Source: Halovivax limisalsi (GTDB lineage: Archaea > Halobacteriota > Halobacteria > Halobacteriales > Natrialbaceae). From it: a stretch of 64,000 nucleotides of DNA. Both the position numbers and the translations under genes were made by a program. This document shows positions 19,681 to 32,839 of this stretch, one piece after another (the stretch's first letter is position 1; each line of letters begins with the position of its first letter). The notes under the pieces are model-generated. The model saw nothing but the letters and a program-made list of their open reading frames with translations, made no database searches and was not told the origin of the DNA. The stretch covers positions 1,364,001 through 1,428,000 of the forward strand of contig NZ_CP095757.1 in the NCBI RefSeq assembly GCF_023093535.1. Reading direction: 5' to 3'.

Positions 19681-20292
19681 TTACTGCAACAGCCTATCCC
19701 GAGAATCGTCGTCGATGAGTGGCGGATCCTCGTCGATTCCAAGTCGACTCCGTCGTGCGAGAAATCGGTGAGCGAGCGACGAGACGGCGAAGGAAACGAC
19801 GACGAAGACGGTCACCGCGTGCGGGGGAAGGGTCGACACTGGATAGATCGAGAGCACGGATGCGACGAGTACGATCGCCGACACCGCGGCCAGTCCCAGA
19901 TAGTACTCGTTCCACGGTAATTCGTGCCCTCGGACGACGTCGATGTAAATCTCGACGTCCGACAGCGCCGCCGTCGGTTCGACGGTCCCCCGGTCGCGGT
20001 CGAAGTTGACGACGCCACTCTGATCCATCTTCGGCAGGTGTGACTGCTGGAGCGCCGTGTAGACGCGTTTTCGATCCTTGCTCGAAACCTCCTCGTAGTC
20101 GAGTCCGTCCTCCCAGGCGGCGATCCGCTGGGAGAGATCACCGATGGTCAACGTCTTTCCTTCGCACATGAGCGCGTAGAGCACCTGTCGCCGTCGCTGA
20201 TTCGCCAGGAGCTCAAAGAGTTCGTCTTCCGTCAGTTGTACACCCTGTTCGCTCACCCGCGCCCCCGTTCCCTTGCCGTGCGCTGTCGCCAT
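19681..20292 (-). CDS. DUF7344-like winged-helix regulator with two TM segments
   Basis: 203 residues. A winged-helix domain (about 20-110; LFELLANQRRRQVLYAL, RIAAWEDGLDYEEVSS, RKRVYTALQQSHLPKMDQSG) is followed by DVEIYIDVVRGHELPW and two hydrophobic segments (AAVSAIVLVASVLSIYPV, AVTVFVVVSFAVSSLAHRF). This is the haloarchaeal DUF7344 layout: a DNA-binding domain tethered to the membrane. TTTTAA 29-34 nt upstream supports the ATG at 20292. It borders the surface-protein locus and faces away from the first fibre-like gene, so it may control that locus. Two paralogues lie at 21958 and 32252. Confidence 0.82.
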   Translation of the reverse strand: MATAHGKGTGARVSEQGVQLTEDELFELLANQRRRQVLYALMCEGKTLTIGDLSQRIAAWEDGLDYEEVSSKDRKRVYTALQQSHLPKMDQSGVVNFDRDRGTVEPTAALSDVEIYIDVVRGHELPWNEYYLGLAAVSAIVLVASVLSIYPVSTLPPHAVTVFVVVSFAVSSLAHRFLARRSRLGIDEDPPLIDDDSRDRLLQ

Positions 20293-20320
20293 CCGTGCCA
20301 CGAACACAACGACGACACAA

Positions 20321-20326
20321 TTAAAA
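20321..20326 (-). promoter_or_regulatory. Promoter of the DUF7344-like gene
   Basis: TTTTAA on the minus strand, 29-34 nt before the ATG at 20292; predicts a near-leaderless mRNA. The adjoining region (20327-20465) is strongly AT-rich and gene-free. Confidence 0.5.
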
Positions 20327-20487
20327 GTATTCCATCACTTATCGCCAAAATAAATATCACGGAAGAGCTATCGAAAGTTATGGAAGCGCAAAGTTCGAAC
20401 AGTTCTTCCCGCAGAGTATCTGCATTTGCTCGCGGTGAAATTTATATTAATATTACATGTAATGCGGACGGTGGTTCACAGTATACC

Positions 20488-20588
20488 GTTGACCGGCGGT
20501 CAACCTTCGGAATACGCGTGTGGATGGCCGTTGACCGGCGGTCAACACTCGGAACACCTGTGTGGGAGGTTGTTGACTGCTGGTCAAA
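20488..20588. repeat. Three tandem 17-bp palindromes at an exact 42-bp period
   Basis: GTTGACCGGCGGTCAAC occurs at 20488-20504 and 20530-20546, and a degenerate third copy GTTGACTGCTGGTCAAA at 20572-20588. Starts are 42 bp apart, four helical turns, so all sites face the same side of the helix. The first two units also share spacer sequence (CGGAA.AC..GTGTGG). The array ends just before an ATTACGATATAC promoter (about 20617-20628) and 82 bp before the ATG at 20670. It reads as a cooperative regulator-binding array. A continuous frame crosses it because 42 is divisible by 3, but I do not regard that as a gene. Confidence 0.75.
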
Positions 20589-20669
20589 CCGACGGTGAAC
20601 GGACGCCACGTCTGTATTACGATATACCCGCTTCGGATAGTACCGCGTGCCCCTCGGGGGCGAGATAGC

Positions 20670-21182
20670 ATGCAGCGACGAAAGTTCATCATCGGTACGG
20701 GCGCACTGGCAACGGCAACGGCGGCGGCAGTGGGGACGGGGGCGTTCTCTTCCGTCACCGCCGCGCGAAACATCGACGTCGCGGTCGCGGACGACGCGAG
20801 CGCGTACCTGAAACTGAAGGGAACGGATTCACATTACGTCGTCGACGACGGGGACGGCGGCACCCTCGCCATCGACATGAGCGACTCCAACCCGACGAAC
20901 GCGGGCGGAACGGGTGTCAACCCCAACGCGGTGACCGAGTTCGACGACCTGTTCGTCGTCGCGAATCACGGAACCCAGCCCGTCTCCGTCGGGATTTCGA
21001 AATCCGGGCAGCACCCGGACGCCGTGACGTTCGAGGATAGCAACGGCAACTCGCTGTCGAACGGGATCGACCTGGACGTCGGCGAACAGGCGAGCATCAG
21101 CGTCGTCGTGGACACGACGGCCGGATCCATCTCGGTGAACGAAGAACTGCTCGACAGCGTCGTCATCCAGGCGCTGGCCTAA
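20670..21182 (+). CDS. Secreted DUF1102-like (TasA/camelysin-like) fibre-type protein 1
   Basis: 170 residues. The twin-arginine start MQRRKFIIGTGAL leads into a hydrophobic stretch ending GTGAFSSV (about 21-29). Then comes a beta-rich domain with the family phrase VAVADDASAYLKLK and the core motif DLFVVANHGTQPVSVGI (93-109), a Phe-x-x-x-Asn-x-Gly beta pair as in TasA-type subunits. It is the shortest of six paralogues here. The downstream paralogue starts 13 bp after its stop, so the two form an operon behind the palindrome array. I infer an exported structural subunit of the cell surface; no enzymatic residues are seen. Confidence 0.82.
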   Translation: MQRRKFIIGTGALATATAAAVGTGAFSSVTAARNIDVAVADDASAYLKLKGTDSHYVVDDGDGGTLAIDMSDSNPTNAGGTGVNPNAVTEFDDLFVVANHGTQPVSVGISKSGQHPDAVTFEDSNGNSLSNGIDLDVGEQASISVVVDTTAGSISVNEELLDSVVIQALA

Positions 21183-21195
21183 CGGTGTTCGATCA

Positions 21196-21765
21196 ATGCA
21201 ACGACGAACATTCGTCCTGAGCGGCGGTGCGATCGCCACCTGTGGCGCGCTCGCGCTCGGAACCGGCGCGTTCTCGAGCGTCGAAGCCGAGCGCGACGTG
21301 ACGATCGATGTCACGGACGACGCGAACGCCTACCTGAGCATCCGTCCGTACAACGGGCCGAACGGCAACTACGCCACCATGACCGACGGCGAGATGGCGG
21401 TCGACCTGACCGGCGATAACGGCAACGTCGCCGGCAAGGGGGTGAATACGAACGCCCTGACGGGAATCGCCAACCTGTTCACGATCGAGAATCAGGGGAC
21501 CCAGGCGGTCGACGTGGGCGTCTCGCCGATCGCGTTCCTCGACGTCGACGGCAGCATCTTTCCCCCGTCCTTCGACGGCGTCCTCGCCGTCTTGCTCGTT
21601 CCACAGGGCAGCTGGGGTATCCAGCCCGGCGGCGGGATTTCGATCCCGGACGTCGGGCCCGGCGAGGCGATTCACTTCAGCCTGCTGGCCCTCGCGTTCC
21701 CCGAAAGTGCGATCGACGGTCCCGAAATCGACGATCAGATCGAAATCACGGCGGAGGTCCCATGA
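21196..21765 (+). CDS. Secreted DUF1102-like fibre-type protein 2
   Basis: 189 residues, paralogous to the preceding gene. The signal is MQRRTFVLSGGAIATCGALA with GTGAFSSVEAERDV following. The core motif NLFTIENQGTQAVDVGV is at 93-109. The C-terminal half has extra hydrophobic beta segments (GVLAVLLVPQGSWG and HFSLLALAFPES). Two closely related subunits in one operon could co-assemble as major and minor or cap subunits. The stop codon overlaps the ATG of a 42-codon ORF. Confidence 0.82.
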   Translation: MQRRTFVLSGGAIATCGALALGTGAFSSVEAERDVTIDVTDDANAYLSIRPYNGPNGNYATMTDGEMAVDLTGDNGNVAGKGVNTNALTGIANLFTIENQGTQAVDVGVSPIAFLDVDGSIFPPSFDGVLAVLLVPQGSWGIQPGGGISIPDVGPGEAIHFSLLALAFPESAIDGPEIDDQIEITAEVP

Positions 21766-21890
21766 TGGCTCCTGACAGTCCAACGCTCGAAGACTACGAG
21801 GAAGCGGTCGGCATCGATGTCGATCTCGGCGACGTCGAGGTCGATAGAGAATCGATCAACGCCGAACTGGAGCGGCTCTTCGACGGGTAG
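21762..21890 (+). CDS. 42-residue acidic micro-protein coupled to the fibre operon
   Basis: This short frame begins ATGATG, its first ATG overlapping the TGA of the preceding gene (ATGA), and ends TAG at 21890. The product is MMAPDSPTLEDYEEAVGID plus 23 further residues, acidic and helix-prone, with no signal peptide, so it would stay in the cytoplasm. Codon third positions are G/C-rich like real genes. The 4-bp overlap argues for translation coupled to the secreted subunits. It could be a chaperone or regulator of the operon; no homologue is recalled. Confidence 0.5.
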   Translation: MMAPDSPTLEDYEEAVGIDVDLGDVEVDRESINAELERLFDG

Positions 21891-21957
21891 TCGGGTCTGC
21901 CCCGGCACCGACGGCCGAGCCGGGGCCTCACACGCGACGATTCCCCGTTCGTGACCG

Positions 21958-22584
21958 TCACTCGAGCTCCGGCGGTGGTGCGTCCGCACCCCTCGCTCGC
22001 CGTCGAACGTCGTGCCACTGACCGAGGGCCAGGAGGCCGAACGCGACGACGATCACCGTGGCGACGGCGAGGGGCGACAGCGCCGCCACCGGCCAGATCC
22101 CTAGCCACCCGAGCGCGAGGACCCCGATCGACGCGGCGGCGAGTCCGAGCGTGCGCGCGGACCAGTCCGTCGAGTCCCCGGTATCGGTCGTCGGGTAGCA
22201 CTCGATGGTCGCCAGCGCCTCGGTCGGTTCGACGAACCGGCGGTCCTCGTCGTAGGTGACGATCGACGCCTCCTCGAGCGAGGGCAGGTGCGATTGCTGG
22301 AGCGCGGTGTAGACGCGCTTTCGCTGTTCGGAGGAGACGTCCTCCGGCGTACAGCCGTCCTCCCAGGCGGCGACTCGTTCGGTCAACTCGCCGAGCGTGA
22401 CGCCCTCGGGATGGCGTTTGAGATAGTACAGCGCGAACCGACGTCGCTGGTTCGCGAGGACGTCGTACAGCCGATCGACGTCGACGACCTGCCCGCTCGG
22501 CTCGCGCGGGAGCCCTCGCTCGTCCGCCCCTGGTAGGCCCCCTGGCGATTCACCGTCCCGTCGTGGTACTCCCTTTGCCCCCAT
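21958..22584 (-). CDS. DUF7344-like winged-helix regulator with two TM segments
   Basis: 208 residues, second copy of the regulator type at 19681. The winged-helix region runs DRLYDVLANQRRRFALYYL to RKRVYTALQQSHLPSLEEAS, then FVEPTEALATIE, two membrane segments (ARTLGLAAASIGVLALGWLGI, LSPLAVATVIVVAFGLLAL) and a basic tail. The N-terminal 35 residues are variable, so a start nearer VVDVDRLYDVL is possible. It converges with the two-subunit fibre operon and is 155 bp from the next minus-strand fibre gene. An AT-rich CATTTATTTG lies about 40 nt upstream. Confidence 0.8.
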   Translation of the reverse strand: MGAKGVPRRDGESPGGLPGADERGLPREPSGQVVDVDRLYDVLANQRRRFALYYLKRHPEGVTLGELTERVAAWEDGCTPEDVSSEQRKRVYTALQQSHLPSLEEASIVTYDEDRRFVEPTEALATIECYPTTDTGDSTDWSARTLGLAAASIGVLALGWLGIWPVAALSPLAVATVIVVAFGLLALGQWHDVRRRARGADAPPPELE

Positions 22585-22738
22585 TAGACCACCCGATTAC
22601 ATCGGAGCGAACGGGCTGACACCAAATAAATGCAGGGTATATCTATTCGAATTATTGTAAGTAATGGGGGTCAGCGATCCCGGCCCGGGTTATCGTGGCC
22701 GTGGTCGCGGGGTGCAGACGGATTGCACGATCCCGGTC

Positions 22739-23674
22739 TCATTCGACGGTGGGCACGACGTCGGCGTGCACTGCGAGCACGATCGTCTCGGCGCTTGCAG
22801 CCGACCCGTCGATCGCGTCGAGCGGGATCGTGTACGTCGAGGTCGAGGGATCGTACGTCGCGCTCGCGCTGTCGTGCTGGAAGCGACCGGGTGCGGCGTT
22901 GACGGCGGCGAGGCGGTCGGTTCCGACGGCCGCGTAACAGTGGCTCTTCCGGAGCATCGTCCCCTCGTTCGATTGCAGCGAGACGGTCACCGCGTCGCCG
23001 TCGTCGTCGAACTCGACCGACCCGACCTGCTCCCCGTGGTCGAGATCGTTCTGGCCCGCTCCGCTCCAGAGCTGGCCGTCGACGGGACCGGCGCCGAGCT
23101 CGTACGGCAGGTACCAGCCCCAGCGATTGGCCCGTATTCCCTCGAGTTCGTTGAGTCGGTTGGCCGTCGGATCCGGTGTTCCGTCCGGTCCCTCGCGGAT
23201 CGCCCACGCCGTCTCCGACGGACAGTGACACGCGATCGAAATCTCGTCGGTCCGGTGGGCGTGAACGCTCAGATCGGGCCCCGACACCTCGATCTCGAAG
23301 TTGACGGGTCGGGTTCCGTCCCCGTCGAGGCAGGATAGTCGGGCGCGCACCTCGGCAGTCTCGCCGACGTCGATCGAGTCGGGCAACGCGAGGAGTTCGA
23401 CCCCGATCTCCTCGTCGGCACCGACGGCGTCGAACGAGAACGACTCGATCGGCGCTTTGAGTTGATTGGTGACCCACAGCAGCGTCTCGACGGCTTCGCA
23501 GTCGAACTCGATCGTATCGTTGTACTGCAACCGAAGATAGGCCTCGTCGTCGCCGACGGTCTCGATGGAGACGTCGCGAGTCGCGTCGACTCGCGAGTAC
23601 GCACCGGAGCCGATGACGACGCTACTTCCGATCGAGGCCGTTCCCATTCCCAGAACGAACGTTCGTCGTTTCAT
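22739..23674 (-). CDS. Secreted DUF1102-like protein 3 with long C-terminal domain
   Basis: 311 residues. The signal is MKRRTFVLGMGTASIGSSVV, then IGSGAYSRVDATRDVSI and DDEAYLRLQ, with the paralogous core at LLWVTNQLKAPIESFSF (65-81). Here the usual Gly of the Asn-x-Gly pair is replaced by Leu. The C-terminal 150 residues are not shared with the others; they include CHCPSE and a Trp-rich stretch (ANRWGWYLPYELG). It looks like a divergent accessory subunit. It stands alone, with about 650 bp gene-free upstream. Confidence 0.78.
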   Translation of the reverse strand: MKRRTFVLGMGTASIGSSVVIGSGAYSRVDATRDVSIETVGDDEAYLRLQYNDTIEFDCEAVETLLWVTNQLKAPIESFSFDAVGADEEIGVELLALPDSIDVGETAEVRARLSCLDGDGTRPVNFEIEVSGPDLSVHAHRTDEISIACHCPSETAWAIREGPDGTPDPTANRLNELEGIRANRWGWYLPYELGAGPVDGQLWSGAGQNDLDHGEQVGSVEFDDDGDAVTVSLQSNEGTMLRKSHCYAAVGTDRLAAVNAAPGRFQHDSASATYDPSTSTYTIPLDAIDGSAASAETIVLAVHADVVPTVE

Positions 23675-24322
23675 TGTAGAGTCTCGTGCTGCGTTCGCGC
23701 TACGTCTCGAATCCCATTGTCCACCGATCGTCGATCTCGTCGGCCTTGTCGCCGCCACGTTGTCGGCGAAGCGGCTGGCCGCCGACCCGACGAGGGGCAA
23801 CCGCCCGGCACGGTCCCCGTTGACGGCATCGATCCCCGGCAACGACTTAGTAGTGCGCCGATAGCGGTGTCACAGAGCGGTCCTGAACCAGTTCAAAGCG
23901 ATCGTTTATCGCGCGAAGGGTGAGCAAGATCGGGGGACTGCGCGGCCACGGCCACCACCGAACTGTTCCGGGTTACGTGATATCGCGGAGCCGGGGCTAT
24001 CGGCTGCCGACCACGGTGTTCGGGCGGACGGCTGCCGACTACTCGAGTCGTGGTAGCGGCGATCGCGACGGTCGTCGTGGCCAGGACGAGTCTGGGCCAG
24101 TCGACGAGCCGGTCATCGCGCTGCCGGGAGAAGAGAGGTATCGACGGGCGAGTAGCCCGTGCCGGTTCGGCTGTTCGTCTCGTACGCGAAGTGCGCGCCG
24201 GCGACCCGTTCTGCAGTCGTCGGCCGTGGGTGGGCGCCTCGATCGCGTTCGACGGCCCTCGGGGTCGATCCGATCGGACGACGCTGCGGTCGTTCGGATC
24301 GATTCGAAGCGACGGTCAGAGG
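23675..24322. other. Gene-free stretch
   Basis: About 650 bp between two minus-strand surface-protein genes. Open frames exist on both strands but have arginine/serine-rich composition and no motif I recognise. I see no clear promoter box within 40 bp of 23674, so the downstream gene probably has a leader. Confidence 0.4.
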
Positions 24323-25423
24323 TCAGTGCTGTTCGTCGCAGGTGCGCCAGCCCTGTGCCGACGCCTCGTCGCTCATTTCGGGATACTGTTCCGGCGAGAT
24401 GGTCTCGTCCGGCTCGCCCTCCGCGGGGAGGTCAACCTCGACGACGAGCAGGTCGTCGTCGACGTCGGACGGCGCCTCCGCGGGTACGCCGTGACCCTCC
24501 GTCGAGTACCAGTCGGCGAGGTCCTCGAGACCGTTCTCCGTCTTGTACTGCGCCCACGTCTGTGCGAGCGGGTTGCACTCCGATCCCGACTCCCAGAAGA
24601 GGAGTCCTGCCAGCGGGACGCTCGCGTCGCCGGAGCGGATCTCCGACGTCGACGATCCGAGCGAGTGATCCGAACGGAACTCGCCGGGCGAGTCGGCGAT
24701 GGCGAGGTCGTAGGTGACGCTCGCGCCGGAGCCCGCGCCGTCGTTCCCGACGGTGTACTCCGTGCCCGTTCGCTTGTAGCCGTCACCGTCCTGCTCGTAG
24801 GTCGTACAGACGTATTCACCGTAGAGATGCGGACACGTCGGCGTCTGGCCGCAGTCGCCGTCGACGTCGGCGACGATGGTGACGTCGTTGTCGAGCGCGT
24901 CGAGGAGCATATCGCCCTCCTCGAGGCCGTAGCTCTTGGTGCGGATGCCGACGCAGATACACTCGCCGACGTCGAGCGAGACGGCGTTACCCTCGCCGAC
25001 GACCGAGGCCTCGTCGTCGGCGCCGAGGTAGAATTCGACGCGGCGGTCGCCCTCGTACGTGGGCCAGTTATCGTCGTCCTGGATCCAGATGCAGGCCGAT
25101 TCCTTGCCCTGGTTACAGATCTGGAAGACGTTGTGGAACCAGCTCGTGGAATTCGAGTTGATTCCGGCACCCAGCGGGGTCGAGTCCCGCGTGGGGTTGT
25201 CCTCGTCCATGTAGATCTTGAGGTGGCCGTTGTCGTCGAGGTGGGCGTAACTGCCGTTTGGCGAGTCACACTTGTCCAATCCGAGGTAGGCGTTCGGGTC
25301 CTCCGCCACCGCGATGGAGACGGCCCGGTCCGATTCGACGCGACTGAACGCGCCGGTTCCGACGAGCGCGCTCGCACCGATGGTGGTGCTACCGACGCCC
25401 GCGAGGAATGTTCTTCGTTGCAT
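24323..25423 (-). CDS. Secreted DUF1102-like protein 4, mosaic with protein 6
   Basis: 366 residues. The signal is MQRRTFLAGVGSTTIGASAL, then GTGAFSRVESDRAVSIAVAE. The core is VFQICNQGKESACIWIQ (99-115), and GECICVGIRTKSYGLEEGD (153-171) follows. Residues of about 27-191 are almost identical to protein 6 (26874-28547), because the DNA is duplicated. After Cys191 the C-terminus is unique: CPHLYGEYVCTTYEQDGDG, LLFWESGSECNPLAQTWAQY and WRTCDEQH, rich in Cys that may form disulphides outside the cell. Its ATG is only 21 bp downstream of the preceding gene's stop, so the two are co-transcribed. Confidence 0.83.
   Translation of the reverse strand: MQRRTFLAGVGSTTIGASALVGTGAFSRVESDRAVSIAVAEDPNAYLGLDKCDSPNGSYAHLDDNGHLKIYMDEDNPTRDSTPLGAGINSNSTSWFHNVFQICNQGKESACIWIQDDDNWPTYEGDRRVEFYLGADDEASVVGEGNAVSLDVGECICVGIRTKSYGLEEGDMLLDALDNDVTIVADVDGDCGQTPTCPHLYGEYVCTTYEQDGDGYKRTGTEYTVGNDGAGSGASVTYDLAIADSPGEFRSDHSLGSSTSEIRSGDASVPLAGLLFWESGSECNPLAQTWAQYKTENGLEDLADWYSTEGHGVPAEAPSDVDDDLLVVEVDLPAEGEPDETISPEQYPEMSDEASAQGWRTCDEQH
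24852..25354 (-). repeat. 503-bp segment duplicated at 27976-28478
   Basis: Aligns without gaps to 27976-28478 at an offset of 3124 bp. I count nine mismatches (about 98% identity), six of them clustered at about 25137-25172. It encodes the N-terminal fibre-like domain of two proteins that differ on both sides, indicating recent duplication or gene conversion. Confidence 0.9.
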
Positions 25424-25444
25424 GCTAGATGAAACGTCGATCGA

Positions 25445-26089
25445 TCAGCTCTGAACCTCGCCCGCGCCCGGCGCGTCGGCGACGATCGTGACGCTGCCGT
25501 CGATGAGCGGTTCGTCGGCCGTCGCGTCGACGCCGTAGGTCTTCGTGACGATGCGCATCGTCTCGCACTCGCCGACCTCGAGTTCGAGCGGCTCGTAGCC
25601 GGGCGCCTCCCAGTCGTCCTCGCTGTCCATCACGATCGAGTTGCCGTCCTCGTCCTGCACGTCGACGATGGGCGACCCCTCTTCGTTGATGCCCTCGGGC
25701 GCGGACGGGTGGAAGTCGAGATCCGTGACGTCGATCGAGATCGTCGCCGTGTCCTTGCCGTTGTTACAGATGTCGAACATCCCCTCGAAGTACGTCGTCG
25801 AGTCGGAGTTGACGCCTTCGCCGAGGTTGGGTTCCTCTCCCGAGTTCCCCTGCTGGTTACCCTCGCCGTCGATCTGGACGTAGAGGTGTCCGTTCTCGTC
25901 GAGCGCGACGTAGTTCTCACTGTTCTTCGTATCGAGCGGGACGAGCCCGAGGTAGGCCTCGTCGTCGGGCGCGACCTCGATGCTGACCGCACGATCCGAT
26001 TCGACGCGGCTGAACGCGCCCGAACCGATGAGCGCGCTGCCGCCAAGTGCTGTACCGCCGATGCCGACCAGGAAGTTGCGTCGTTTCAT
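25445..26089 (-). CDS. Secreted DUF1102-like protein 5
   Basis: 214 residues. The signal is MKRRNFLVGIGGTALGGSAL, then GSGAFSRVESDRAVSIEVAP and the core MFDICNNGKDTATISID (104-120). The C-terminal part continues as beta strands (ECETMRIVTKTYGV) without a fused domain. It is probably the plain subunit of this operon, with protein 4 encoded 21 bp downstream. The ATG at 26089 is the one that yields the twin-arginine signal; a TTG 36 nt upstream only lengthens it. A perfect 7-bp hairpin lies 51-68 nt upstream. Confidence 0.83.
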   Translation of the reverse strand: MKRRNFLVGIGGTALGGSALIGSGAFSRVESDRAVSIEVAPDDEAYLGLVPLDTKNSENYVALDENGHLYVQIDGEGNQQGNSGEEPNLGEGVNSDSTTYFEGMFDICNNGKDTATISIDVTDLDFHPSAPEGINEEGSPIVDVQDEDGNSIVMDSEDDWEAPGYEPLELEVGECETMRIVTKTYGVDATADEPLIDGSVTIVADAPGAGEVQS

Positions 26090-26873
26090 GGTTGATCTCC
26101 GTGTCGCACGGGTCCAGACCGGCAATCCCCAGCCCCCGTGCCTGGTTCAGACCAGGCGTGTACCCCCCGTAAGAAATTGCACGTAGATGGACCACCAACG
26201 ACCGAGTGGTATCCAGAACACTCCGGATGGTTTCGGCTGAACCCCGCCTGAATGGCAACAATATTCGGTTAGTTGTCCGATTTGAGGCGGATGGAGTAAC
26301 GCTGTCGACGCGGATGGCATCGATCGGCGACGACCGATCCTCGAACGCGATCACGATCGCGCTCGTTTCGGCCCGATCGTCACGGCAACTGTCCTGGACG
26401 AGGCTTCACCGCCCTGGTTGCGACTCTACCGTCAGTTCCGCTGTTCACGTGTCACAGTCCGTTCGTTGTTTCACGTGCGTGCGGGACTGAGGCCGGGGCG
26501 CGTAGCGTCCCGCCGTCTCTCCGACGGGATCCATCCCACACTCCCTCGAGTCACGGACTGTTCGGGCGATCCGACGGCGGTTGCCGGGAAACGACACCGG
26601 TTCTGTTCGACACCGAGCCAGTTCATCCCCATCACGTCGCCGCCTCGTCCCACCGCTCCGTATCGGGTGACGGAGATATCGTAATAGACGCGACCAACTG
26701 CACGACGGACGCGGTCAGCATTCATCCGCACCGCGGCCGATCTGCGAACCCGATCGGGTGGGTGAACCGTCGGTCCACCGGTTCGAGTTGCAGATCGGCC
26801 GGTCGGACAAGCCGCCGAACGGGACTGCCGGACGAATCACCGACCGTTCTCGAACGGACGACCGGCCCGGCTC
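26090..26873. other. Gene-free stretch with a perfect inverted repeat
   Basis: About 780 bp between surface-protein genes. GCCTGGT-TCAG-ACCAGGC (26140-26157) lies in the probable leader of the 26089 gene. Its loop complements poorly, so it could act as an operator or an RNA hairpin. An AT-rich patch (CAACAATATTCGG) is at about 26259-26271. Short frames here have no recognisable product. A string close to GTCTATTACGATATC (about 26678-26692, minus strand) resembles the promoter region of the 20670 operon. Confidence 0.45.
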
Positions 26874-28547
26874 TCAACAGAGGCCCGGGTCGGCCGGAAT
26901 GCACTCGACGTCGACGACGATCGAGGTGATCTCGGAGCCGTCGGTCCCGACGACCGAGAGCCCGATCTCGTGGACGCCGGGGTCGGTGCACTCGAGGCTG
27001 AACTCGTAGGAGCCGTCGTAGCCGTCGACGAGTTCGAAGGGGTCGTCCGGGAGCGAGTCGGCGACGACGACGCCGTCGGGGTCGTCGACCTGGATCTCGA
27101 CCTCGCCTTCCGATTCCTCGCCCTCGTTGGACAGCGAGACGGCGTACGACTGGGTATCGCCGACCTCGACGATCGACGCGCCGGTCGCCTCGAACGAGAC
27201 GACCCGCGGGATGACGACCGCGCTCCCGCCGATCGCGCCGGCCTCGCCGTCACCGAGCCCGCCGTCGTCGCGCGTGAGTAACACGTCGAAGAAGTCGGGG
27301 TACTCGGGGAACGTCTCGTGGTAACAGCACCAGCCGCTCATGCCGTTCTGGGTGAGCCCCATGTCCAGCCCGGCCTGTTCGACCGTGACCGAGTCGTACT
27401 GATTCCAGCCCATCTCCCGGTTCTGCAACTCGCCGAACGGATCGGCGTAGGCCCACGGTTCGTCGAGGTCCTCCTGGGTTTTCCCGAGGAGGCCGCCCCC
27501 GTTGTTGACGAAGTCGGAGATGTCGTCCGCGCGGCTCTTGATCGCGGCGTTCTGGGCGTTCGTCACGCCGGCAGTGATCTCGAAACAGCTGCTCGGGATC
27601 CCGAGCATGGCGTACCCGTCGAAGTCGACCGACTCGATCTCGGAGCTCTCGGAGACGAACGTGACGGTCTCGTCGACGTTCGGCGCGTTCCCGAGATCGC
27701 CCTCCCAGTAGTCGTCGACCAAGCTGCCCGAGGCGTCCGGGTCGCCGCCGAGGACGAGAATCCCATCGCCGCCGTTGGTCACGTCGTCGAGGATGGATTC
27801 GACCATCGAGGCGTGATCCGCCGGATCGCCGTGGCCGCCCGTCCCGGCGCCGTCCTCGGAGTCGAGTCCCATGAGGACGACCGGGCCGCCGCCTTCTTCT
27901 TCGTCGACGAGGTCGGACCACGTCTTCTCCTTCGGTTCGGTACATTCGGGTGGTTCTTCGCCGCCGTCGTCGCTACAGTCGCCGTCGACGTCGGCGACGA
28001 TGGTGACGTCGTTGTCGAGTGCGTCGAGGAGCATATCGCCCTCCTCGAGGCCGTAGCTCTTGGTGCGGATGCCGACGCAGATGCACTCGCCGACGTCGAG
28101 CGAGACGGCGTTACCCTCGCCGACGATCGAGGCCTCGTCGTCGGCGCCGAGGTAGAATTCGACGCGGCGGTCGCCCTCGTACGTGGGCCAGTTATCGTCG
28201 TCCTGGATCCAGATGCAGGCCGATTCCTTGCCCTGGTTACAGATCTGGAAGACGTTGTGGAAGTAACTCGTGGAATTCGAGTTGATTCCTGCCCCGAGCG
28301 GGGTCGAGTCCCGCGTGGGGTTGTCCTCGTCCATGTAGATCTTGAGGTGGCCGTTGTCGTCGAGGTGGGCGTAACTGCCGTTTGGCGAGTCACACTTGTC
28401 CAATCCGAGGTAGGCGTTCGGGTCCTCCGCCACCGCGATGGAGACGGCCCGGTCCGATTCGACGCGACTGAACGCGCCCGATCCGACGATGGCTCCGCCG
28501 CCGAGGGAGGCAGAGCCGGCGCCGATCAGGAAGTTTCGTCGTTTCAT
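26874..28547 (-). CDS. Secreted DUF1102-like protein 6 fused to amidotransferase-like and Ig-like domains
   Basis: 557 residues. The signal and fibre-like N-domain (1-191; VFQICNQGKESACIWIQ) are nearly identical to protein 4. After an acidic Pro/Glu linker comes an alpha/beta domain of about 230 residues: GPVVLMGLDSEDG, GDGILVLGGDPDASG, YAMLGIPSSCFEI and FVNNGGGLLGKT. It resembles the ThuA/DUF4350-type amidotransferase-like fold used in surface proteins. The last 110 residues form a CARDB/Ig-like beta domain (SLSNEGEESEGEVEIQV) ending CIPADPGLC. I infer a large functional or tip subunit. The next gene upstream (DUF5305-like) ends 388 bp away in the same orientation. Confidence 0.82.
   Translation of the reverse strand: MKRRNFLIGAGSASLGGGAIVGSGAFSRVESDRAVSIAVAEDPNAYLGLDKCDSPNGSYAHLDDNGHLKIYMDEDNPTRDSTPLGAGINSNSTSYFHNVFQICNQGKESACIWIQDDDNWPTYEGDRRVEFYLGADDEASIVGEGNAVSLDVGECICVGIRTKSYGLEEGDMLLDALDNDVTIVADVDGDCSDDGGEEPPECTEPKEKTWSDLVDEEEGGGPVVLMGLDSEDGAGTGGHGDPADHASMVESILDDVTNGGDGILVLGGDPDASGSLVDDYWEGDLGNAPNVDETVTFVSESSEIESVDFDGYAMLGIPSSCFEITAGVTNAQNAAIKSRADDISDFVNNGGGLLGKTQEDLDEPWAYADPFGELQNREMGWNQYDSVTVEQAGLDMGLTQNGMSGWCCYHETFPEYPDFFDVLLTRDDGGLGDGEAGAIGGSAVVIPRVVSFEATGASIVEVGDTQSYAVSLSNEGEESEGEVEIQVDDPDGVVVADSLPDDPFELVDGYDGSYEFSLECTDPGVHEIGLSVVGTDGSEITSIVVDVECIPADPGLC
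27976..28478 (-). repeat. 503-bp segment duplicated at 24852-25354
   Basis: Partner of the segment at 24852-25354, gap-free with nine mismatches counted. It encodes residues of about 24-190 of protein 6, stopping just short of the linker to the amidotransferase-like domain. Confidence 0.9.
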
Positions 28548-28935
28548 GGTTGGTGAGGACGTGTCGCTGCGCTTGCCGCACGACACGACTCGTTCGAGAA
28601 CCCACGTGATTCGACCCGGTATGTATAGACTCGTTTCTCCGCGGCCCGTTCGCACCATCGAGCCGTTGTCGTCGGACAGGGTCGCCCACCGCCGAGCCGA
28701 GCGTCCGCGCTGCCGCGAGGGAACGAACCACCGAAAATCGGCAACAACGCCGTTCGTTCGGCGCTGGCGGCACCGACAACGTCGGATTGGTCGGCTACTG
28801 ACTCACCCTGTGCGGTGCGGAGCCGGCCAGTCTCCAGCTGGTGAAGGGCGCGGTCGAAGTGGATTCGAGTCGACGGAGCCGTCGGATTCGTGCCAGCGGC
28901 GATCGGTCGGTTCGGGTGGGTGTCGACCGACCGCG
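28548..28935. other. Gene-free stretch upstream of protein 6
   Basis: About 390 bp. TCTATACATA (minus strand, about 28619-28628) is a plausible TATA box 72-80 nt before the ATG at 28547. This would give protein 6 its own promoter with a leader of about 50 nt. Nothing else recognised. Confidence 0.45.
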
Positions 28936-30402
28936 TCAGCCGTGATCGGTCGCGTCGGGCTCCGTTCCGCCATCCGGCTCCATGGGCGGACTGGCCGCAT
29001 TCGACGAGTCGGAGTCGCCGCCGGACGACGCCCCGTTCGCGTCGGGCGTCACGAGTTCGTCTTCCCACGTTTCGACGTCCGCGAAGAGCGCCTCGAGTGA
29101 CGCCTGGTCCGCTCCGGGGCCGTCGACGGCGACCCGACTGCCCGCGGCCGGAGCGCTGTCCCGGCGGGCTCGATCCGACTCCACGTCGTCGAGGATCGCC
29201 TCGGGCTCGGCTTCGACCGGTTCGTCCAGGGTCGTCTCGGGATCGATCTCGATCGGTTCGGCGTCGTCGGCGGGGGCCGGCAGCGCCTCGTCGGCTCCCG
29301 GGAACTCCGCCGGTTCGTAGACGTAGACGGCGCCGCGATCCGCCACGTAGTAGGCCTCGGCGGTCGGATCCTCGATCACGCGCCGGTCGCTGTCGATCGC
29401 GACGTCGACGATGTCCTCGAGCGACTCGACCTCGATCGTCGGGCCCTCCAGCTCCCCGACGGGGATCCGCCCGCGGCTGACCCACTCGTCGTACTCGGCG
29501 CGTTCCTGCGCGAGTTCCAGCGCGGCGAGTTCCTCCCGCGAGGGGCCGAGCGTTCCCGTCCGACGGCCGTGGACGACCCAGGCGAGGGCGCCGACGCCGA
29601 ACAGCAGCGCCGCGAGCGAGCCGAACGAACGGAGCGGTCCGTACGTCCGCTCGGTCGTGACCGTCCGCGTAAACTCCCCGCCGCCGAGACCGCTCGTCTC
29701 CGTCGTAACGGCGTAGCTACCGTCGTTGCGCTCGATGCTGTAGGTCGCCTCGTGGGCGTTGGCCACCTGCTTGCCGTCGATCGTTCCGGAGGCGGTCGTC
29801 TTGACGACGACCGACGTTTCCGTCGTTCCGGGATCGGCCCCGAGATCGGCGACGATCGATCCGATCCGCGCGTCGAGTTCCGAGACGTTGACCGTGAACG
29901 AAAGCGGGACGGCCGCTCCGGGTTCGACGCCGTCGACCGACGTCGTCTCGAGCCGTTCGCGTTCCTGCCAGAGCGTCTCCTCGCCGTCGACGGCGCGGAT
30001 CACGAGGTAACTGGTCGCCTCGACCGAGAGCGACCCGTCGGTCACGGACCCGTCGTAGGCGTACGCGTAGAGCCCCTCCAGTTCCGGCATCAGCCGCGTG
30101 AAGTACAGCGGGCGATCGGCGCGCACCGTTCCCGTCTCGAAGACGGGGTTGTCCGCCTGGACGCGCGCCTGGTGGCTCAGCTCGGGTTCCTCGGACCAGG
30201 ATCCGACGACCGCCGTCGTCTCCTCGGTCCCCGGGTCGACGTGCGTGTTGTAGGCGACCCAGCCACCCCCGAGTACGACGAGGCCGAGGAGGACGACGAC
30301 GGCGAGAAATCGTCGATCGAGGACCTCTCGAAGTCGTATCTCCAGTCGTCTCGTCGCCGACACGCCCTGCACGTCCTGTCGATCACGTTCCCTTGTAGTC
30401 AT
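28936..30402 (-). CDS. DUF5305-like two-TM membrane protein, signal-peptidase partner
   Basis: 488 residues. TM1 is at about 32-51 (FLAVVVLLGLVVLGGGWVAY) and TM2 at about 260-278 (GSLAALLFGVGALAWVV). Between them is a 205-residue extracellular beta-rich domain with regular Thr/Ser strands (FTVNVSELDARIGSIV, TSVVVKTTASGTIDGK). A 210-residue cytoplasmic tail is acidic and low in hydrophobics. DUF5305 proteins are found beside archaeal signal peptidases; no activity is known. Its ATG overlaps the signal peptidase stop by 4 bp, so the two are translated together. I infer a membrane scaffold or assembly platform for the exported fibre-like subunits. Confidence 0.8.
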   Translation of the reverse strand: MTTRERDRQDVQGVSATRRLEIRLREVLDRRFLAVVVLLGLVVLGGGWVAYNTHVDPGTEETTAVVGSWSEEPELSHQARVQADNPVFETGTVRADRPLYFTRLMPELEGLYAYAYDGSVTDGSLSVEATSYLVIRAVDGEETLWQERERLETTSVDGVEPGAAVPLSFTVNVSELDARIGSIVADLGADPGTTETSVVVKTTASGTIDGKQVANAHEATYSIERNDGSYAVTTETSGLGGGEFTRTVTTERTYGPLRSFGSLAALLFGVGALAWVVHGRRTGTLGPSREELAALELAQERAEYDEWVSRGRIPVGELEGPTIEVESLEDIVDVAIDSDRRVIEDPTAEAYYVADRGAVYVYEPAEFPGADEALPAPADDAEPIEIDPETTLDEPVEAEPEAILDDVESDRARRDSAPAAGSRVAVDGPGADQASLEALFADVETWEDELVTPDANGASSGGDSDSSNAASPPMEPDGGTEPDATDHG

Positions 30403-31553
30403 GATTGTAACCAGTCGAAAAGGCTCGACGATCGCGAACGCCGCCGCGACCGGATCCGGTCGCTCCCGTCCCCGAAGACCCGCCAGAAGAGCCAGAGCGG
30501 GCCGGAAAGCACCGCATAGATGGCCAGGTACGGCACCCACGGGTGGATGGCGTACAGCGAATCGATCGCCCCCGGCGGAAGCGCGATCAGGTAGCGATGT
30601 TCTCGCATGGCTTCGACGTGATAGCCCGTCTCGTCGGCGGCGTGTAACGTGACGGTCGCGTTCGCGCCCTCCCCCGGCCCGAGCTCGAACCGCGATGGCT
30701 CGGCGTCGAGTCCGTTCGTCTCCGGTTCGAGGTAGCTGACGATCGGGACGACGCCCCCGTTGTGGATCTGGTACTGAAACGAGTCCGTCTCGCCGACCGG
30801 AATGATCGTCGGACTCGAGGAGTTGCCCTCGGAACTTACGATCCCGTAGGTCTCTCCGCCCGCCGGGAGGACCATGGCGAGCGTCGCCGCCAGGCAGACC
30901 AGACCGATACAGGCGACCAGCAGGTACCGTTCGTCGAAACCGGTGTCCCGGGTCCGATCCCTGCCTTTCGCCTCACTTCTCCCGTCCTCCCCGCCACCGT
31001 CGAAGACGCCGAGGACGAGCGTCACGAGGCCGACGCCGAAGAGCACGACCATGAGCTGGGACGGGCCGAGGCGTTCGGTGCCGAAGAGCGAAGCCACGAC
31101 TCCCTCGACCCAGCCGATCGCAGACCCGGTCGTCGAGGCGAAGACGCCGAGTTTCGGGATCGTCACCACCTCGCCGTCGACCGAGAGGGCGACGGCCTCG
31201 ATCTGCCCGTCCGTGATCGGCGGTTCGCCCTGGCTCTGGTCGACGAACGGGTTCGCGTCCCCTTGCGTGACGTACCCGGTCGGTCGTTCGTCGACGACCC
31301 GATGGGTCGTCAGGGAACCGCCGTGAACCGACTCCGACTCGAACGCCACCACGTCCCCGGTCTCGACCTCGCCGGCCAGCGCGGCGGGGATCGCGACGTA
31401 GCCGTCGCCCGGCTCGAGCGTCGGCGCCATGCTCCCCGTCTCGACGTACGCGAAGAGTACCGGCTGTCCGAGTACCGAGCCGAGGACGAGCGAGAGGACG
31501 AGAATCCCCCCGAGCGCGAGCAACCCGTATTCGATCGCATCTCGTAGTGTCAT
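30399..31553 (-). CDS. Signal peptidase I (S26B type) with Ig-like ectodomain
   Basis: 384 residues, about twice the usual archaeal length. TM1 (about 9-29) precedes the catalytic region: Ser41 in ETGSMAPTL, His84 in LTTHRVV and an Asp in GDANPF (about 99), the Ser-His-Asp set of archaeal/SipW-like peptidases. The extension has TM2 (SQLMVVLFGVGLVTLVLGVF), TM3 (LLVACIGLVCLAATLAMVL), an exported Ig-like domain containing FQYQIHNGGVVPIVSYLEP, and TM4 near the end. The domain's Asn-Gly-Gly strand pair echoes the core of the fibre-like proteins nearby. I infer that it matures those subunits, as SipW does TasA in Bacillus. Confidence 0.88.
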   Translation of the reverse strand: MTLRDAIEYGLLALGGILVLSLVLGSVLGQPVLFAYVETGSMAPTLEPGDGYVAIPAALAGEVETGDVVAFESESVHGGSLTTHRVVDERPTGYVTQGDANPFVDQSQGEPPITDGQIEAVALSVDGEVVTIPKLGVFASTTGSAIGWVEGVVASLFGTERLGPSQLMVVLFGVGLVTLVLGVFDGGGEDGRSEAKGRDRTRDTGFDERYLLVACIGLVCLAATLAMVLPAGGETYGIVSSEGNSSSPTIIPVGETDSFQYQIHNGGVVPIVSYLEPETNGLDAEPSRFELGPGEGANATVTLHAADETGYHVEAMREHRYLIALPPGAIDSLYAIHPWVPYLAIYAVLSGPLWLFWRVFGDGSDRIRSRRRSRSSSLFDWLQS

Positions 31554-32251
31554 CGATTCTTCGGTGATCGAGGCTGTCGAACCGGCCACTGGCACCCCAC
31601 GGGTCCGAGAACGGCCCAGCCCCACACGCGATACGATAACTACCGGGGGAGAGATTTAAGGTTACTCGACAGTTCACGGGAACAAAACGTTTCTGGCCGT
31701 CCGATACGCTGTTGCAGTGAGTAAAATGCCTATTTTACCATACCGCTGCCTGATAAATATCGGAATAATTCCCTCGAACTAGGGACCGTCTCGTTCGAAG
31801 CTCGCAGTAACCGGACGAATTCCGACCACCGACCACCGGCCCCTCCTCGCCGATGGCGGTCGATACCGTTCGAACCACTACTGGAAGTATCGTCCGCCAA
31901 TCACGAGATCCAACAGTATATTGCCGATGCGTGTTGTCGATAGCCACCGATATTAGTGTACCGATCCGCTTCGTCGGCTTGGAGTCGTTCTGTTCACGAC
32001 CTTTTACCGCTCAGTTCGCACCTGATCGCGTTCAGTTTGGACAATCCGCGCCAACAAACCTCGTATATTTAATTAACTAAAGGATAAAATAAAGATGTGT
32101 ATATGATGATTCGATCATCGAGCGACGTGCCGATCGAGTCGGCCGCTCGGCCGGGGCGCGAACGAGTCGGGTCTCGCAGGCTCGCCTGCGTTGAACCGTT
32201 CCAATCGACCGTCCGGTTCGGGTCGACTCGAGAACAGGCGGAGGGATCGGC
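31554..32251. other. AT-rich divergent regulatory region, no gene
   Basis: About 700 bp between the signal peptidase operon (minus) and a regulator (plus). GTAAAAT-GCCT-ATTTTAC (31721-31738) is a perfect inverted repeat. CCTTAAATC (minus, about 31656-31664) is a candidate TATA box with a leader near 75 nt. An AT-rich run (about 32064-32110, including TATATTTAATTAACTAAAG) and GATGAT-TCG-ATCATC (32105-32119) precede the plus-strand regulator. Small frames here lack support. Confidence 0.5.
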
Positions 32252-32839
32252 GTGAGCTCGCTTTCGAGCGAACTTCCCGATCGGAGCAGCCGATCTGGGA
32301 CCGACGCGGAGATCAGTCGCGATCAGGTCTTCGACGTCCTGAGCAACCATCGTCGGATCTGCACCATCCGATATCTGAAAGAAACCGACGAAGAACTGGT
32401 CTCGCTCCGCGACGTCGTCGACTACGTCGCAAAGACCGAACACCCCGAGGCGGAGGGCCAGGTCGAGTACAACGATCGAAAGTCGGTCTACACCGCGCTT
32501 CGACAGACGCACCTCCCGAAACTCGACGAACTCGGGATCATCGAGTTCGACAAGTCCCGCGGCGTGATGCAGTTGACCGATCGAGCGAACCACGTCCAGA
32601 TGTACCTGGAGTACGTCCCGGAGAACGACATTCCGTGGCACGCCCACTACCTCGGTGTCACGGCCCTCAGCGGCGTCCTCGTGGCGACGACGTTCTTCGA
32701 CCTGTATCCGCTGGCCGTCGGCTGGCAGACGGTCTCGATCGTCTGCTTTCTGATGCTCGCAGTCTCGGCGCTCGCACACGCCTACTACCAGCACGGGAGT
32801 CGTCTCGCGGATACCGATTTCGTGCCCGTGGAGGACTGA
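32252..32839 (+). CDS. DUF7344-like winged-helix regulator with two TM segments
   Basis: 195 residues, third regulator copy, at the far edge of the surface-protein locus. The winged-helix domain runs DQVFDVLSNHRRICTIRYL through RKSVYTALRQTHLPKLDELG. DRANHVQMYLEYVPENDIPW then leads into two membrane segments (GVTALSGVLVATTFFDLYPL, VSIVCFLMLAVSALAHAYY). The GTG start has GGAGGGAT 6-13 nt upstream, a good Shine-Dalgarno, unlike most genes here. It is divergent from the signal peptidase operon, which makes that operon a likely target. Confidence 0.83.
   Translation: MSSLSSELPDRSSRSGTDAEISRDQVFDVLSNHRRICTIRYLKETDEELVSLRDVVDYVAKTEHPEAEGQVEYNDRKSVYTALRQTHLPKLDELGIIEFDKSRGVMQLTDRANHVQMYLEYVPENDIPWHAHYLGVTALSGVLVATTFFDLYPLAVGWQTVSIVCFLMLAVSALAHAYYQHGSRLADTDFVPVED

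Follow-up and report, generated by a model that had tools for sequence, protein, structure and literature searches.

A probable tafi-type locus in Halovivax limisalsi with shared subunit heads, two combined cassettes and a signal peptidase bearing an extra beta-sandwich

The closest described relatives of the genes reported here are the Tat-fimbriae (tafi) of Galeva et al. (2025, iScience 28:111793, as cited in PMC12687288). A solved Tafi pilus from Natrinema sp. J7-2 (PDB 9p0a), the AbpA pili of Pyrobaculum calidifontis (7ueg), the TasA-SipW system of Bacillus (TasA fibre 8aur) and the chaperone-usher pili provide the points of comparison. SipW belongs to the archaeal type of signal peptidase, with a Ser-His-Asp catalytic set. 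In TasA an aromatic residue directly follows the presumed cleavage site, as given in a passage of PMC10269814, and the study of the archaeal thread filament could assign no gene with certainty as a chaperone or usher (PMC9715654). The locus described here lies at positions 19681-32839 of a 64,000-nt stretch of the Halovivax limisalsi genome (contig NZ_CP095757.1, positions 1,364,001 to 1,428,000), referred to in its whole length as the window, and comprises 11 genes between an aconitase gene and a gene for a metallo-beta-lactamase-fold nuclease (flank names read from their sequences): six secreted paralogues (S1-S6), one signal peptidase, one DUF5305 protein and three DUF7344 proteins (W1-W3). 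It is very probably a tafi-type locus, homologous to Tat-fimbriae and of a kind already known.

Subunits and their relation to known fibres

All six secreted proteins begin with a twin-arginine (RR) signal, starting MQRR or MKRR and judged by motif, and have a G-[ST]-G-A-[FY]-S junction (in the forms GTGAFS, GSGAFS and GSGAYS), both of which a sequence-only reading of the stretch had reported. The F-x-x-x-N-x-G motif that it assigned to all six is present in five, and S3 reads VTNQL there. With NCBIfam models all six match TafE (48.6-77.3 bits) and TafA (26-37 bits), in both cases short of the curated cut-off (155 and 190 bits respectively), and with Pfam S1, S4 and S6 match DUF1102 over the cut-off and S2 and S5 under it. 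Because no window protein reaches any curated TafA, TafC, TafE or TafF cut-off, none is given one of these names, and by sequence the subunits are related to the named Taf proteins without being strict orthologues of them. A profile of the mature head (A2), built from 63 sequences, clearly matches a single solved structure in the PDB, the Tafi pilus 9p0a (E 8.5e-22). Three loci around a TafA that does exceed its cut-off were also read. In two of these (L138 and L140) TafA is accompanied by DUF7344, DUF5305, a signal peptidase of this kind and subunits that, from their order and likeness, are labelled TafE-like, TafC-like and TafF-like. L139, the third, has similar parts, except that the 19 kb read show no DUF5305. 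Several subunits, DUF7344, the signal peptidase and DUF5305 are thus common to the window and to L138 and L140, and the window locus is called tafi-type because its subunits match the solved Tafi pilin and the same parts occur in TafA-positive loci. These two observations also lend good support to the earlier proposal that the genes form a surface-fibre system in which several types of subunit are served by a peptidase of their own, the fibre itself being predicted. Homologous subunits, RR signals and the list of parts are shared with tafi; the window differs in its six paralogues, none with a C-terminal membrane segment, in matches below the equivalog cut-offs, in a head copied between subunits and in combining two cassettes.

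The predicted folds agree with this placement. A Foldseek search with the S4 head model (pLDDT 78.9) gives 9p0a, the AbpA pilus 7ueg and the Sulfolobus thread 7pnb as the top three PDB matches, and on realignment Z is 8.5 over 131 residues for 9p0a, 8.2 over 124 residues for 7ueg and 7.1 for self-complemented FimA. The jelly-roll head is shared with AbpA, compared by fold alone; identity in the structural alignment is 14%. The TasA fibre 8aur is a weak match (rank 32, E 0.15), so that of the two folds against which a check had been proposed, AbpA is the closer. Camelysin (PF12389) has no match in the whole genome, with a control matched in Bacillus subtilis (genome-wide statements here rest on profile searches), and the suggested membership of the TasA/camelysin family is rejected, the Tat-fimbria being the nearest relative. 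The window subunits share with TasA the aromatic residue just past the presumed cleavage site and a dedicated Ser-His-Asp signal peptidase, but have RR rather than Sec-type signals.

Four positions are invariant in the head alignment, three of which (A1, F2 and R9) fall within the junction/donor-strand region. S1, S2 and S5 consist of a single domain; additional C-terminal domains are present in S3, S4 and S6, which are probably minor, adhesive or decorating subunits. The features of the locus are given below with window coordinates. Comparisons are with the five genomes of the genus, this genome and G001-G004, and A and B denote two cassettes defined by these comparisons.

19681..20307, minus strand: W1, DUF7344 winged-helix membrane protein, cassette A (PF24035 1.5e-28; two transmembrane (TM) segments; 66-72% identity to W1 of G001, G002 and G004)
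20670..21182, plus strand: S1, secreted fimbrial subunit, 170 aa, RR signal, GTGAFSS junction, cassette A (DUF1102 5.9e-7; TafE 62.5 bits; 9p0a 4.3e-10; 72% to S1 of G001, G002 and G004)
21196..21765, plus strand: S2, secreted fimbrial subunit, 189 aa, cassette A (TafE 58.2 bits; 69-71% to S2 of G001, G002 and G004)
21958..22584, minus strand: W2, DUF7344 winged-helix membrane protein, cassette B (PF24035 1.5e-30; 60% to the G003 orthologue)
22739..23674, minus strand: S3, TafC-like secreted subunit, 311 aa (TafC 45.5 bits, TafE 48.6 bits; 62% to the G003 orthologue)
24323..25423, minus strand: S4, secreted subunit, 366 aa, head and 175-aa tail (DUF1102 4.1e-6; 9p0a 1.3e-11; 68% to the G003 orthologue)
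24851..25351, minus strand: mature head of S4, residues 25-191, shared module (98% DNA identity to the S6 and S7 heads; structure predicted)
25445..26089, minus strand: S5, secreted single-domain subunit, 214 aa (TafE 71.2 bits; 75% to the G003 orthologue)
26874..28547, minus strand: S6, secreted subunit, 557 aa, S4-type head and 366-aa tail (TafE 77.3 bits)
27975..28475, minus strand: mature head of S6, by sequence swapped for an S4-type head (99% aa identity to the S4 head)
28936..30402, minus strand: DUF5305 protein, 488 aa (PF17231 2.4e-48; two TM segments, 32-50 and 259-277, flanking an extracellular domain)
30399..31553, minus strand: fimbrial signal peptidase, 384 aa, Ser-His-Asp type (TIGR02228 7.3e-12; fold of SPase I / SEC11)
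30588..30857, minus strand: beta-sandwich of the signal peptidase, residues 233-322, MSP/PapD-like, between TM3 and TM4 (predicted model)
32252..32839, plus strand: W3, DUF7344 winged-helix membrane protein, cassette B (PF24035 4.2e-26; 74% to the G003 orthologue)

The start of the DUF5305 gene overlaps the stop codon of the signal peptidase gene (ATGA), and its product is the DUF5305-like protein with two TM segments that had been described. The three proteins read as membrane-tethered winged-helix regulators all belong to DUF7344, and by hydropathy W1 and W2 have two C-terminal membrane segments each and W3 one clear segment. A proposed micro-ORF is not borne out, as a comparison of the window with G003 and L052 (a locus of Natronosalvus hydrolyticus) shows no convincing conservation of the small ORFs in the intergenic gaps. 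Upstream of S5, positions 26104-26206 are ~75% conserved with G003 with no frame that is clearly coding-like, and are probably a promoter or leader.

Subunit heads and the two cassettes

The mature heads of S4, S6 and a third protein, S7, are ~98% identical over 501 nt and 98-99% identical in amino acids, while their tails and upstream sequences are unrelated. The shared block ends where the head ends; in S4 it starts near the cleavage junction, and between S6 and S7 it already starts at the start codon. At 4-fold degenerate sites the three heads differ by 4-9%, as against 44-52% for heads and the S4 tail and 40% for the S6 tail between orthologues within the genus (comparison with G003); the S6 head differs at 5% of these sites from S4 and at 47% from its positional orthologue, S6 of G003 (S6g). 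The S6 tail has its orthologues in the tails of S6 from G003 (69%) and from Natronosalvus hydrolyticus (N6, in L052; 45%). The S6g head is 82% alike to that of N6, whereas the window S6 head is 61-63% alike to these two and 99% to S4. Since its tail is orthologous to those of S6g and N6 and its head matches S4, the S6 protein has, at the level of sequence, had its own head replaced by one of the S4 type. The converse case is a Natronosalvus gene in which an S4-type head bears a different tail. Head copying is shown at this same level, and we infer an assembly interface common to S4, S6 and S7.

S7 is encoded by a lone gene (L017:6275-7213, minus strand; G000:C1, about 1104274-1105212) 284 kb from the window locus and far from any assembly gene; it has an S6-like signal peptide, the S4-type head, an Asp/Gly-rich linker and an unrelated tail. 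Self-comparison of 87 related loci reveals no comparable head-length block of at least 95% identity between two subunit genes, with the limit that copies beyond the examined stretches would escape, and recent head homogenisation as a general habit is rejected.

The tails are diverse. Ninety tails from related loci, including three from this genome, fall into 26 groups without detectable mutual likeness, and the recognised domains are LamG lectin, VWA, beta-helix, Ig, PKD and CARDB. The S3, S4 and S6 tails match no Pfam family over its cut-off (S6 has a sub-threshold filamin-like match), and no specific ligand is therefore claimed. These observations are best fitted by an assembly part that stays constant and exchangeable parts that are probably adhesive; as the tailed subunits retain the N-terminal donor-strand region, their tails could be placed at the fibre end or along the shaft.

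A tafi-type locus lies between the aconitase and nuclease genes in all five genomes of the genus. In G001, G002 and G004 it consists of cassette A (W1, S1, S2, signal peptidase, DUF5305) and in G003 of cassette B (W2, S3, S4, S5, S6, DUF5305, signal peptidase, W3, in the same gene order as in the window). In the window W1, S1 and S2 of cassette A adjoin the aconitase gene and are followed by a complete cassette B, so that by sequence the locus is a hybrid of half of A and all of B; alternatively, whole A and B cassettes may once have stood side by side, with parts lost later. The genome has only two DUF5305 genes, one per fimbrial locus. The TIGR02228 model identifies three type I signal peptidases in it, those of the window locus and of a second tafi-type locus and the housekeeping enzyme. 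Because the peptidase and DUF5305 of cassette A are missing here, its S1 and S2 would depend on those of another locus, most simply those of the adjacent cassette B. The second locus (L018:3814-9594, in G000:C1:1031000-1046000) is kept at a second site in G003 (L045) and encodes DUF5305, a signal peptidase, a C-terminally anchored TafF/CARDB-like protein, a Tafi-pilin-like subunit (S8), DUF7344 and a secreted protein, S9. S8 is the closest to the Tafi pilin of three single proteins tried (7.9e-15). The near-identical S4 and S6 heads, the hybrid locus and this second locus were all absent from the earlier description.

The signal peptidase and its beta-sandwich

The signal peptidase matches the SipW model at 1e-4, although with the SipW equivalog NF046067 it scores 21.9 bits, below the 190-bit cut-off. 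Residues S41, H84, D99 and D105 are invariant across 38 relatives and give a Ser-His-Asp set instead of Ser-Lys, in accord with the SipW-like assignment made from sequence. In the predicted model (pLDDT 81.4) the order is TM1, catalytic domain, TM2, TM3, a beta-sandwich (233-322) and TM4, and the catalytic domain has a fold like those of SPase I and SEC11 (Z 9-10.6). The beta-sandwich, with a pLDDT of about 91-96 over most of its length, matches MSP/VAP (Z 7-8.2) and the pilus chaperone Caf1M (Z 6.6), a fold that is common, and its Foldseek matches include PapD, SfaE and CupB2. It contains invariant residues, among them R320 and Y321, and does not occur in the housekeeping peptidase of this genome. 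Of the 295 genomes of the phylum, 56 have it (E 1e-5). Common descent of this domain and the subunit heads is rejected (hhalign probability 5%).

We propose that the domain may capture or chaperone newly cut subunits. The chaperone-usher pili offer a parallel, in that the subunit head resembles self-complemented FimA and the extra domain of the peptidase resembles the PapD/Caf1M fold. They differ in that no usher or free chaperone gene is recognised among the genes of the window locus, and in that its chaperone-like domain is fused to a membrane signal peptidase.

Distribution, alternatives and a model of assembly

A scan of species genomes identified 235 relatives of the signal peptidase, from which 80 loci were kept and 64 haloarchaeal loci with enough flank were counted. 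The subunit family is encoded near the peptidase in 63 of the 64, DUF7344 in 59, DUF5305 in 55 and all three in 49, an association that exceeds chance; the neighbourhood survey that the sequence-only reading called for thus upholds the grouping. At least two subunit genes are present in 59/64 loci, at least four in 21/64 and at least six in 1/64, so having several subunits is usual and six marks the top of the range. The parts do occur together and multiplied, as had been noted, but this is not special to Halovivax limisalsi, the locus being widespread in haloarchaea.

Outside the haloarchaea, in families f21 and f41, one cluster contains DUF7344, three DUF1102-like subunits, a signal peptidase with the same beta-sandwich and DUF5305, together with a further secreted or membrane protein (L150:5956-11180, L151:5762-11590 and L152:4544-9919). 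Their subunit signals are without the RR motif, and several retain a GTGADF-like junction. This suggests that Tat export may be a haloarchaeal change to an older fimbria. Among other related loci, a subunit-family ORF of 1443 aa with several HYDIN/ASH-type Ig and PKD domains adjoins a fimbrial signal peptidase (L100:12351-16679), one subunit gene contains perfect 142-nt repeats offset by 72 nt, a tandem duplication (L120:4371-4584), and two Natronomonas loci (L105 and L111) have three DUF7344 genes and several subunit-family matches around one signal peptidase, with a VWA domain on one L105 tail.

Several points weigh against the fibre and the chaperone role proposed for its peptidase. The Taf cut-offs are missed throughout, the first residues of the S4 head model, the expected site of the donor strand, are of low confidence, and the fibre is itself a prediction from genes and modelled folds. 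The PapD-like likeness stands at Z 6.5-8, which common beta-sandwiches also reach, and the subunit head itself resembles the same folds as the beta-sandwich of the peptidase. The extra domain might equally well serve as a spacer, structural or sensory, without acting as a chaperone, as befits the middling Z scores of the common MSP/Ig-like folds and the absence of a sequence link to the subunits by hhalign; its retention with the fimbrial peptidase across distant archaea, its invariant residues and its absence from the housekeeping enzyme argue against this.

It is improbable that the window proteins stay monomeric, as adhesins that are secreted or associated with the S-layer and carry a beta domain of fimbrial type, the second locus alone building a fibre. 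That locus does encode the protein closest to the solved pilin, S8, and a C-terminally membrane-anchored subunit, which locus B does not have. Against this, locus B retains its own signal peptidase and DUF5305, as fimbrial loci do, S1, S2 and S5, each with a single domain, keep 69-75% identity in congeners, and three of the four invariant head positions fall in the junction/donor-strand region. Strong purifying selection on the protein, with no recent copying, would account for the amino acid identity of the S4, S6 and S7 heads, yet it is hardly credible given how little their silent sites differ compared with those of orthologues within the genus, and given the different earlier S6 head that S6g and N6 reveal.

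On the fibre reading, expression would be controlled by the DUF7344 membrane regulators, and subunits, to judge from their RR signals, would be exported through Tat. Conservation is consistent with the Ser-His-Asp peptidase cutting at GSGA/FS and thereby releasing an N-terminal donor strand, and the fold with polymerisation by donor-strand complementation. The PapD-like extracellular domain of the peptidase, perhaps with DUF5305, could hold fresh subunits at the membrane and pass them on. With an S4-type head on S6 and on the distant S7, different tails would plug into the same assembly interface. We tentatively suggest, as a possibility we consider rather unlikely as a whole, a one-piece machine for archaeal donor-strand fimbriae in which the peptidase with its PapD-like domain couples cleavage to strand capture at the membrane, while in haloarchaea fibre specificity is changed by copying the constant head to different adhesive tails and by exchange of whole cassettes at a fixed chromosomal site.

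New here are the hybrid locus, the head transfer, the PapD-like peptidase domain and the non-Tat gene sets in other archaea. How archaeal donor-strand fibres are chaperoned and started appears unsettled, and here the peptidase with its fused PapD-like domain makes a concrete and testable candidate. Recent head transfer, together with cassette exchange, offers a route for the diversification of archaeal adhesins, and the cluster illustrates how an archaeon could alter what its fibres bind while the assembly part stays constant.

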